From Halogeometricum sp. S3BR5-2 (GTDB taxonomy: Archaea > Halobacteriota > Halobacteria > Halobacteriales > Haloferacaceae), in contig NZ_JAMQOQ010000005.1 of the NCBI RefSeq assembly GCF_031624635.1, positions 62,001 through 126,000 of the forward strand: DNA of 64,000 nucleotides, in the 5' to 3' direction. Every line of letters starts with the position of its first letter. The first letter of the stretch is position 1. The notes under the pieces are model-generated. The model did no database searches, was not told the origin of the DNA, and saw nothing but the letters and a program-made list of their open reading frames with translations. Positions 6,196-10,211 of the stretch are shown here, piece after piece. Both the position numbers and the translations under genes were made by a program.

Positions 6196-8478
6196 GTGCA
6201 AGACGTTGAACACGTACGACTCGCGGCGGACGACGCGGCCGCCCTCGGCGGCGTCGCGTCGAACGCCACGACGGGGGTGGGGATAGCGACGCTGGCGGCG
6301 GCCGAAACCGGCGAACGCGCCGTCGACGTCGCCGTCGTCACCGACCCGGAACGGGAGTTCGACCTCGACGTTCCCGTCGTCTGTTACGCCGACTGCGACC
6401 CCGAGTCGGTGCCGCGGCCCGAGCGATTCGACGCGTTCGTCCCGCGGGGCGACGAGGCGTCGCTCCGCACGCAGATCCGGTGGCTCCGCTCGCGCGCGGA
6501 ACGGTGCGACCACGGTCGGAGCCGACTCAAGCGACTGTACGAGGGCACCTCGACCCTCATCGCCGCCGAGACGACCGACGAACTGTTCGCGCGGACGATA
6601 GACATCGCAGAGCGCATCCTCGCGTTCGACAACTCCTCTATCAGCATCGACGTGGGCGGGAGTTTCCGCGTCTCCGCCACCGACACCGCCACCGACGAGG
6701 GCGACCTGATTCCGCTGGGTCAGGGAATCCTGGGGGAGACCTACCGGACCGGCGAGTCGAAACTCGTCGACGACGTCCGCGAACACGGCGCCGCCGCGCC
6801 GGACGACCCCGCGTTCCGCTCCGTCGTCAGCGTCCCCATCGGAGATATCGGCGTCTTTCAGGCCATCTCGACGGAGGTCGGCGCGTACGACGAGACGGAC
6901 CGCCAACTGGCGGAACTGCTCGTCTCCTACGTCGCCGAGACGGCCGCGCGCATCGAATCGGAGGCGGCGCTCCGGGAGAGTCGCGGGCGCATCGAGGCGC
7001 TCCACCGCGGGACGGTCGAACTCGCCGCCGTCACCGACCTCGCGGAACTGTTCGAGCGGACCGTCGGGATAACGGCCGAGATTCTCTCGTTCGACCTGAG
7101 CTATATCGGCGTCGTCGAGGGGGGGTACATCGTCCCCGCGGCCACCTCCGAGGAGTTCCCCGAGGACGGCGCGGAGGTGAAACCGCTGGAGGACGGCGGC
7201 GTCGCCGCGCACGTCCACCACACCGGGCAGACGCGCCTCGTCACAGACATGGCCGAGGCCGAGGACGCCCGGCCGACGAAGGACGACTACCGCTCGGGGG
7301 TGAGCGTCCCCGTCGGAGACATCGCCGTCTTCCAAGCGGCCGCGTACACGCCGAATGCGTTCGACGAGGCGGACGTGGAACTCACCGAACTGCTGATGGC
7401 GCACGTCGCCGTGACCGCCGAGCGCATCCGCGCCGAGGAGAGCCTCCGCGACGAGCGCGACCGCTCGACGGCGCTCTTCGAACACGTCTCGGACGCCGCC
7501 GTCGCCTACGAGGTGGACGACGGAGGCACCGCGCGCGTCCAGAGCGTCAACCGCGCCTTCGAGGAGCGGTTCGGACGCCGCGCGGTCGACGTCGTGGGCG
7601 GCGACCTCGTCGACGAAATCGTTCCCGACGACGAGGCGGACCCGCTCGAACTGCGCGTCGCCGGGGGAGAGCGTCACCGGGGGGAGGTGCGGCGACTCGC
7701 CGCCGACGGCGCGCGGGAGTTCATCCTCAACGTCGTCCCCCTCGACCCCGACGCGAGCGACGGCCGGGGGTACGCGCTGTACACCGACATCACCGAGCGG
7801 AAGCGCCGCGAGTCGGAGTTGGAGCGGCAGAACGAGCGGTTGGAGGAGTTCGCCAACATCGTGAGCCACGACCTGCGGAACCCGCTGGCCGTCGCGCAGG
7901 GCCACCTCGACCTCGCCCGCGAGACCGACCGCGAGGAGTCCTTCGAGACGGTCGCGAACTCCCTCGCGCAGATGGAGCGGCTCATCGACGACCTGCTGTC
8001 GCTCGCCCGGCAGGGGAACGTGGTGGGCGAGACGGACGCCGTCGACGTGGCGACGACCGCCCGGCGCGCGTGGGCGACCGTCGAGACGCCGGGAGCGTCG
8101 CTGGAGGCGACGCCGACGACGGTGGAGGCCGACGAGGAGCGACTCGCCGAACTGCTCGGGAACCTCTTTCGGAACGCGCTGGAACACGGCGCGGCGGACG
8201 GCGACCGGCCCATCGCCGTCCGCGTGGGTCCGCTCGGCGGCGACGACGCGGGCGACGGAAAAGAAGGGAGAGACGGGTTCTACGTCGAGGACGACGGCGT
8301 CGGCATCCCGCCCGACCGCCGCGAACGCGTCTTCGACCCCGGCGAGACGACCGGCGAGGACGGCATCGGCTACGGACTCGCCATCGTCTCCCGCATCGGC
8401 GACGCGCACGGCTGGTCGGTGTCGGTGACGGAGTCGGAAACGGGCGGCGCGCGCTTCGAGTTCCGGACCGGGTCTTAG
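6196..8478 (+). CDS. Sensor histidine kinase with tandem GAF and PAS domains
   Basis: A cytoplasmic sensor kinase of 760 residues. A degenerate receiver-like N-terminus (about residues 1-100) is followed by two GAF domains (about 130-260 and 285-400), a PAS domain (about 415-530), HisKA with the phospho-acceptor in SHDLRNPLA (His558) and a HATPase_c domain with [11 protein letters not shown] and DDGVGIP. There are no membrane segments, so it should sense a soluble signal. The GTG at 6196 is preferred because GTTATAT lies about 35 nt upstream; translation could also start at 6118. No response regulator is adjacent. Its stop overlaps the convergent rfcA stop by 4 nt. Confidence 0.88.
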
Positions 8479-9455
8479 TCGTCGGCCGCCGCCAGCGACG
8501 CGAGCAGCGCCTCCAACTGCACCTGCTCGTTGGCCCCCTCGGTGATACGGTAGTCCGCCTCGCCGATGCGCTCCATCAGGCGGACGGTGGCGCGTTCGTC
8601 GAGGTCGAACTCCCACACCGAGCGGTGGAGTTGGTCGATGATGTCGCCGCCGGCCATCCCGGTGTCGACGAGGAGCGTCTCCAGTTTCGACCGCGCGGCG
8701 AGGAAGTCGCCGTCGATGGCCGACTGAACCATCTCCTCGATGTCCTCGGGGCGGGCGGTGGAGGTGATGAGGTAGACGGCCTCCTCGTCGACCACCTCGC
8801 CCGTCGTCGCCGCCGCCTGCAGGGAGTTGATGGCGCGGCGCATGTCGCCGCCGGCGGCGTAGACGAGGGCGTCGAGGCCGTCCTCGGTGAGTTCGATGTC
8901 CTCCTCGTCCGCGACGACTTCGACCTGCTTGCGGACGGCGTCGTCGCCGAGCGGCGAGAAACGGAAGACGGCGCATCGGGACTGGATGGGGTCGATAATC
9001 TTCGAGGAGTAGTTACACGAGAGGATGAAGCGCGTGTTGTCGGAGAACTGTTCCATCGTCCGGCGGAGCGCCGACTGCGCGTCGGAGGTGAGCGAGTCGG
9101 CCTCGTCGAGGAAGATGATGCGGTAGTCGTAGCCGCCGAAGGAGGCGCGGGCGAAGTTCTTTATCCTATCTCGCACCACGTCGATGCCGCGCTCGTCCGA
9201 GGCGTTGAGTTCGAGGAAGTTGCCGCGCCAGTCGTCGCCGTAGACGGCGCGGGCAATCGCGGTGGCAGAGGTGGTCTTGCCGACGCCCGCCGGCCCCGCG
9301 AACAGCAGGTGCGGCAGGTCGTCCTGCTCGATGTAGGAGCGGAGTCGGTCGACGATGTCCTCCTGCCCGTAGACGTCGTCGAGCGTCTGCGGTCGGTACT
9401 TCTCGATCCAGATTTCGCGACCCGTCGTCCCCTCCGCGTCCGCGGCCTCGCTCAT
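8475..9455 (-). CDS. rfcA: Replication factor C small subunit A
   Basis: Clamp-loader small subunit, 326 residues, which loads PCNA onto primed DNA with ATP. It has Walker [10 protein letters not shown], Walker B FLDEAD and the SRC arginine-finger motif in PIQSRC. No intein interrupts the Walker A region, unlike several archaeal RFC genes. This is the canonical active small subunit; a second, divergent one lies at 54617-55672. The start MSEAADAEG at 9455 faces the samp2 gene on the other strand. Confidence 0.96.
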
Positions 9456-9592: not shown

Positions 9593-9799
9593 ATGCACGT
9601 CACCGTCGAAGTCGTCGGCGAGGGGGTCGAGGAGGTGTCCGTCGGCGCGGACGGCACCTACGCGGACCTCGTCCGCGCCGTCGACCTCAGCCCCCACGAG
9701 GTGTCCGTCCTCGTCGACGGGTCCCCCGTCCCCGAGGACCAACCCGTCGAGGCCGACCGCGTGAAGGTTCTGCGCCTCATCAAGGGCGGGGCTGCCTGA
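9593..9799 (+). CDS. samp2: Small archaeal modifier protein 2 (ubiquitin-like, SAMP2)
   Basis: A 68-residue beta-grasp protein closely resembling Haloferax SAMP2 ([33 protein letters not shown]). SAMP2 is adenylated by UbaA, conjugated to lysines of target proteins, and also supplies sulfur for wobble-uridine tRNA thiolation. The known Haloferax protein, as I recall it, ends at the diglycine; here two alanines follow (GGAA), so the reactive glycine carboxylate would be buried unless the tail is removed. It lies between rfcA (divergent) and an acetyltransferase gene 10 nt downstream. Confidence 0.93.
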
Positions 9800-9809
9800 G
9801 AGCCGAAAC

Positions 9810-10211
9810 GTGCCCGAAGGACCCGAGATACGCCCCGCCCGCCCCGCCGACCGGGACGCCGCCGTCGAACTGCTGGACGCCGCGATGCTCGAAGTCGACC
9901 CCGGTCGGGTTCGCGAGCGAATCGAGGCCGGCGGCGTCCTCGTCGTCGACGCCGGGAGTCGACTCGTCGGCGTCTGCGTGCTGGCACCGGGCGACGGGGA
10001 GACGGAGGCGGAGACGGAGATAATCCACATCGCCGTACACCGCTCGCGTCGGGCGCGGGGGCTCGGTCGAGAACTGGTCGAGGCGGCCGCGGCGCTGAGC
10101 GAGGGACCGTTGACGGCGACGTTTCGAGGACAGGTGCGGCCGTTCTACGAGGCGGTGGGGTTCGAGATAACGGAGGCCGGAGACGGCAGGTTCCGGGGTC
10201 GACTCAGATGA
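9810..10211 (+). CDS. GNAT family N-acetyltransferase
   Basis: A 133-residue GNAT acetyltransferase. The acetyl-CoA-binding core is visible in IIHIAVHRSRRARGLGRELV (motif A, R/Q-x-x-G-x-G/A type) and the C-terminal FYEAVGF. It starts with GTG 10 nt after samp2 and is probably translated from the same transcript. The substrate is unknown; cotranscription with a protein modifier makes a protein or small-amine substrate possible, but nothing in the sequence proves it. The stop overlaps the stop of the convergent phosphohexomutase gene by 8 nt. Confidence 0.85.
   Translation: MPEGPEIRPARPADRDAAVELLDAAMLEVDPGRVRERIEAGGVLVVDAGSRLVGVCVLAPGDGETEAETEIIHIAVHRSRRARGLGRELVEAAAALSEGPLTATFRGQVRPFYEAVGFEITEAGDGRFRGRLR

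Follow-up and report, generated by a model that had tools for sequence, protein, structure and literature searches.

The sulfur carrier QbsE is made with residues past its C-terminal diglycine (GG), and these are removed by the JAMM protease QbsD. Precursors of ubiquitin-like proteins (Ubls) and the JAMM proteases that act on them are already known. By established E1/Ubl chemistry, a Ubl can be adenylated by its E1 only if the carboxylate of its terminal glycine is free (PMC4048286), and bacterial sulfur carriers capped by one or two residues past the GG are stated to require a protease, QbsD being one example (PMC6006322). Among archaea, Caldiarchaeum CsUb loses a tail of nine residues to CsRpn11, and CsJAMM cleaves the SAMP precursors of C. 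subterraneum (PMC6043591). In Haloferax volcanii, HvJAMM1 was found to cut an engineered SAMP1-MoaE fusion exactly after the GG in vivo, restoring function, and this cleavage occurred only with jamm1 and only with the GG (PMC4443979). JAMM1 has so far been described as a deconjugating enzyme.

The window analysed here, a stretch of 64,000 nucleotides from Halogeometricum sp. S3BR5-2, encodes a SAMP2 that belongs to the same family as Haloferax volcanii SAMP2 (HVO_0202; 2L32, 4HRS) over residues 1-66 and has the same core end. However, whereas the Haloferax protein ends at GG, the window SAMP2 has Ala-Ala beyond it (Table 1).

Table 1. Coordinates of samp2, its terminal codons and its neighbours in the window.
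Feature	Positions	Strand	Basis
samp2 (putative pro-SAMP2), 68 aa, ends LIKGGAA	9593..9799	+	matches to NF041919 and PF21965; only copy in genome
SAMP2 diglycine codons GGC GGG (G65 9785-9787, G66 9788-9790)	9785..9790	+	sequence
SAMP2 tail codons GCT GCC (Ala-Ala; A67 9791-9793, A68 9794-9796), predicted to be removed	9791..9796	+	sequence; variable within genus
GNAT acetyltransferase gene, directly downstream of samp2	9810..10211	+	Pfam PF13508, E 7.9e-11
Replication factor C small subunit-like gene, divergent upstream neighbour	8475..9455	-	ORF list; name from its sequence alone

Results

A SAMP2 with residues beyond the diglycine

The samp2 reading frame starts with ATG and stops with TGA (9797-9799), and its last codons, GGC GGG GCT GCC TGA, encode the end GGAA, as the sequence-only reading had stated. 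Its naming of the protein was borne out as well: the model of the NCBIfam equivalog NF041919, which runs to Gly66 and no further, matches residues 1-66 of 66 at 116.2 bits against a cut-off of 70, Pfam PF21965 matches with an E-value of 3.7e-31 (107.7 bits, cut-off 27), and the best PDB matches are the Haloferax SAMP2 structures. Judged by these sequence matches, the reading frame is a true SAMP2, present once in the 4.66 Mb genome. The diglycine of the family lies at residues 65-66, two residues inside the C-terminal end, and the order GG-AA-stop gives the protein the extra residues past GG that mark a capped Ubl.

The same C-terminus, which the sequence-only reading had proposed to look for in relatives, recurs in a second species of the genus (G004), whose SAMP2 is 97% identical and has the codons GGC GGG GCT GCC TGA followed by different DNA past the stop. 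Tails are present in all five congeneric genomes, the window's included, the other three ending in GGTGG (G001), GGAP (G003) and GGAE (G002), whereas over the 66-residue core the four congeners share about 87-97% identity with the window SAMP2. That the last codons reflect a sequencing error, which had been named as a caveat, or a fault of assembly found no support; because a second species has the same codons, the tail is not an error, and we rejected this explanation as having next to no probability.

The genome also encodes the machinery expected around a capped Ubl. A JAMM1 with the catalytic motif is present at C2:674141-674590 (PF14464, 60 bits; matching the Pyrococcus JAMM1 structures 5LD9 and 5LDA), with the metal-binding and catalytic residues E26, H99, H101, S109 and D112, all of which are invariant in 16 orthologues. 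UbaA is present (L124, 270 bits to ThiF), and SAMP1 (L120) ends in FPPVSGG-stop, without a tail. The JAMM2 gene (L122) is directly followed by a cytidylyltransferase-like gene, and an association of Jab proteases with cytidylyltransferases in archaea has been reported (PMC2948915). A third JAB domain of the genome, on contig C12, was set aside, as it belongs to a 778-residue CBASS-type E1-E2-JAB protein (L123/L125; PADLOC E1-E2, PDLC00835, 1629 bits).

Tails on SAMP2 across haloarchaea

We surveyed 391 genomes drawn evenly from the class and found SAMP2 in 383. Genomes were classed from match tables that show whether the stop directly succeeds the GG, and sequences were read for the doubtful and the tailed cases; in 20 further loci read as a control, 19 of them classed as GG-stop, all agreed with the table. 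SAMP2 ended exactly at GG in 256 genomes, about two thirds, and was tailed in 127, where 1-28 residues or an entire AhpC/TSA or GNAT domain stand past an intact GG. The tail, which had at first appeared to be a peculiarity of the window SAMP2, is therefore found on about a third of haloarchaeal SAMP2s, and Ala-Ala is one of more than 100 tails. In genus g6, three genomes (G009, G333 and G336) gave no SAMP2 match despite a JAMM1 match; the SAMP2s of their relatives are tailed.

The GG was present at the junction in 279/279 SAMP2 loci read, a set that includes extra named records beyond the survey; in one of them (L253) the pattern of the script had missed the end, yet it too reads TKGG at this point. 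The script counted 149 tails, which represent 115 distinct forms and, by locus, comprise 1-3 residues in 59, 4-30 residues in 61 and whole domains in 29, the last being AhpC/TSA redoxin or GNAT acetyltransferase domains past an intact GG. The tail thus evolves fast, whereas no tailed protein has lost the GG, internal though it is. Since 12 genera contain both tailed and untailed species, tails have often been gained or lost.

The residue directly past the GG was Ser or Ala in 76/115 distinct tails, compared with 105/472 at later tail positions, and was Pro in none of the 115. This preference fits a protease site but may be partly mutational: the first tail codon is one substitution from a stop in 37/115 tails (TCG, for instance, differs from TAG by one base), and the tails of one genus have a common ancestry. 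We therefore regard it as suggestive only and have dropped it as proof of a protease site.

Natural fusions of SAMP2

SAMP2 is fused in frame to GNAT in several reading frames (L094, L144, L180, L213, L218, L230, L236, L244, L258 and L266). These fusions are universal in genus g25 (8/8 genomes) and otherwise sporadic, with one genome of g14 and one MAG (L094/L146), a spread suggesting that they probably arose more than once. The fused GNAT is of the kind encoded beside samp2 in the window, where the two genes are adjacent; the SAMP2-GNAT neighbourhood in Halobacteria has been reported before (PMC2948915).

Fusions to AhpC/TSA (redoxin) domains were observed at L043, L045-L048, L050, L009, L019, L028, L172, L176 and L250. 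Their hosts are Halorussus and three further genera, all of the Haloferax family; the genus names rest on loci that coincide with named records, by which g44 was taken as Halorussus (for example G172 and L043) and g28 as Haloferax (G282 and L041). Halorussus is counted apart from these three. The junction GG is kept, and in the surveyed genomes all of these fusions are in JAMM1-bearing hosts. In some of the AhpC/TSA fusions (L016, L159), the first cysteine of the CxxC is lost.

Tails are confined to genomes with JAMM1

The JAMM1 of the window's genome was searched against the same 391 genomes, and an orthologue was present in 295 and absent from 96. Tails were found in 127/288 of the JAMM1-bearing genomes with SAMP2 but in 0/95 of those lacking JAMM1 (Fisher 2e-20, for genomes that are related), so that the dependence of tails on the protease that marks capped Ubls is seen across genomes. 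Because of this relatedness, the count was repeated by genus, giving tails in 29/67 JAMM1-bearing and 0/19 JAMM1-less genera (P 1.8e-4). When JAMM1 status was permuted among genera within families, the association persisted (P 3.5e-4), and at family-specific JAMM1-bearing rates 7.8 tailed JAMM1-less genera would be expected, where 0 were observed. The JAMM1-less genera are spread over seven families, although genera are not fully independent and the contrast comes mostly from three of the families (f1, f4, f12). Many JAMM1-bearing genomes are untailed, indicating that JAMM1 is permissive rather than predictive of tails. With 127/383 genomes tailed and a distribution that follows JAMM1, the tails are not a matter of chance.

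The absence of JAMM1 was rechecked with a profile of 16 diverse JAMM1 sequences on 80/96 JAMM1-less genomes; the other 16 belong to genus g46, except for one genome without SAMP2. The best matches in the 80 genomes were at most 30 bits and mostly fell on the JAMM2 gene at the same coordinates. JAMM2 itself was present in 80/80 of these genomes (E below 1e-56), indicating that the association is specific to JAMM1 and not to JAMM proteases generally. Partial JAB-like matches of 25-30 bits away from JAMM2 were also seen in a few JAMM1-less genomes, among them genomes of genus g46, where the JAMM1 profile scored 25-28 bits (L293, L295, L298 and L299).

Discussion

The explanation that we consider quite probable, judging from sequence comparison, is that the window SAMP2 is a pro-SAMP2 that would be trimmed by JAMM1 before activation by UbaA, and that drift of the stop codon is tolerated where JAMM1 is kept. 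Since E1 adenylation depends on an unmasked glycine carboxylate, the translated protein with its GGAA end should not be activated, and the Ala-Ala past Gly66 would block UbaA. JAMM1, encoded elsewhere in the genome, would then hydrolyse the Gly66-Ala67 bond, which in the gene corresponds to a predicted cleavage point at 9790/9791, directly after the diglycine, and would yield mature SAMP2-GG for sampylation and tRNA thiolation. Both the cleavage of the Ala-Ala tail by JAMM1 and the inactivity of the uncut form are predictions. If JAMM1 trims after the GG largely whatever comes next, the samp2 stop codon could drift in lineages that keep the enzyme, and diverse tails, even whole fused domains, could build up; in lineages without JAMM1, SAMP2 would have to end exactly at GG.

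The sequence-only reading had left a choice between a precursor and a protein that is not conjugated, and the kept GG, the fast-evolving tails and the restriction of tails to JAMM1-bearing genomes favour the precursor, with the cleavage itself still a prediction. Its suggestion that an enzyme such as HvJAMM1 does the trimming gains from the co-occurrence and from the published cleavage of a SAMP1 fusion after the GG (PMC4443979). The other half of that choice, that tailed SAMP2 is never activated or conjugated, having lost its E1-dependent function or acting through non-covalent binding only, appears very unlikely. Adenylation at Gly is impossible when the C-terminus is blocked, and the SAMP1 of the window's genome, with its free GG, could carry conjugation; however, every tailed protein retains the GG in its internal position, the window's tailed protein is the only SAMP2 of a genome with an intact UbaA, and a lost function would not be expected to track the presence of JAMM1.

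It is also unlikely that the tail is removed by another protease, such as a carboxypeptidase, JAMM2 or the proteasome, with JAMM1 as a bystander. A general carboxypeptidase might readily remove Ala-Ala, but such an enzyme would be unable to free SAMP2 from fused domains of 130-220 residues. JAMM2 was found wherever it was sought and has been implicated in SAMP2 recycling, yet recombinant HvJAMM2 was reported to be inactive (PMC4895103); as JAMM2 also occurs in the checked genomes that lack JAMM1, all of them untailed, its candidacy as the trimming enzyme is unsupported. Finally, the JAMM1-less clades might descend from ancestors whose SAMP2 ended at GG, so that the association would be a phylogenetic coincidence, and 55/95 JAMM1-less genomes do lie in one family (f4). 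The spread of JAMM1-less genera over seven families, the within-family permutation and the 12 genera with mixed ends make this quite unlikely. Trimming by JAMM1 thus remains the reading that we prefer for the window SAMP2.

On balance, and with some reserve, we extend this to the view that haloarchaeal SAMP2 is often a pro-protein or an AhpC/TSA or GNAT fusion, with JAMM1 acting also as an obligatory maturase. A maturase function would be a second role for JAMM1; how much SAMP2 is available for sampylation and tRNA thiolation would then depend on JAMM1 activity, and only lineages with a samp2 that stops exactly at GG could lose the enzyme. Haloferax volcanii cannot reveal such a function, because its SAMP2 has no tail. 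The Ala-Ala tail by itself is a minor curiosity, and it is the JAMM1 pattern that gives reason to test it: the finding of tails only where JAMM1 exists is a genome-wide pattern that backs the maturase role and is testable in culturable species. For about a third of the surveyed haloarchaea, annotation that presumes a terminal GG on SAMP2 would go wrong. A literature search for haloarchaeal SAMP2 tails or fusions, or for their co-occurrence with JAMM1, found none; most subscription journals lay outside its coverage, which makes this weak evidence of novelty.

Among the known systems, cleavage of SAMP1-MoaE by HvJAMM1 is alike in that a haloarchaeal JAMM1 cuts exactly after the GG and frees a functional Ubl in vivo, but that fusion was man-made, whereas the tails and fusions on SAMP2 are natural and their cleavage is predicted (PMC4443979). 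CsUb with CsRpn11, and the SAMP precursors with CsJAMM, are natural archaeal Ubl precursors trimmed by JAMM proteases, and for CsUb the cut was shown to fall exactly after the GG; Caldiarchaeum subterraneum is, however, of another phylum, CsUb is nearer to ubiquitin, and the number and spread of tails lay outside the subject of that paper (PMC6043591). PtmS2, which ends in GG-MV, resembles the window SAMP2 in having residues past its GG; in PtmS2 these are removed by a JAMM protease, PtmS1, before sulfur transfer (PMC6006322). The bacterial capped carriers belong to biosynthetic clusters with the protease beside the carrier, whereas the SAMP2 and JAMM1 genes lie apart and SAMP2 serves as a protein modifier as well as a carrier. 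The likeness to eukaryotic ubiquitin and SUMO precursors and to ubiquitin-ribosomal protein fusions would lie in an inactive tail or partner past the GG and its release by a specific protease; in haloarchaea this protease would be a metalloenzyme of the JAMM type, and SAMP2 is fused to AhpC/TSA or GNAT domains. Tailed and fused SAMP2s would thus be natural archaeal counterparts of the ubiquitin precursors and ubiquitin fusion proteins.
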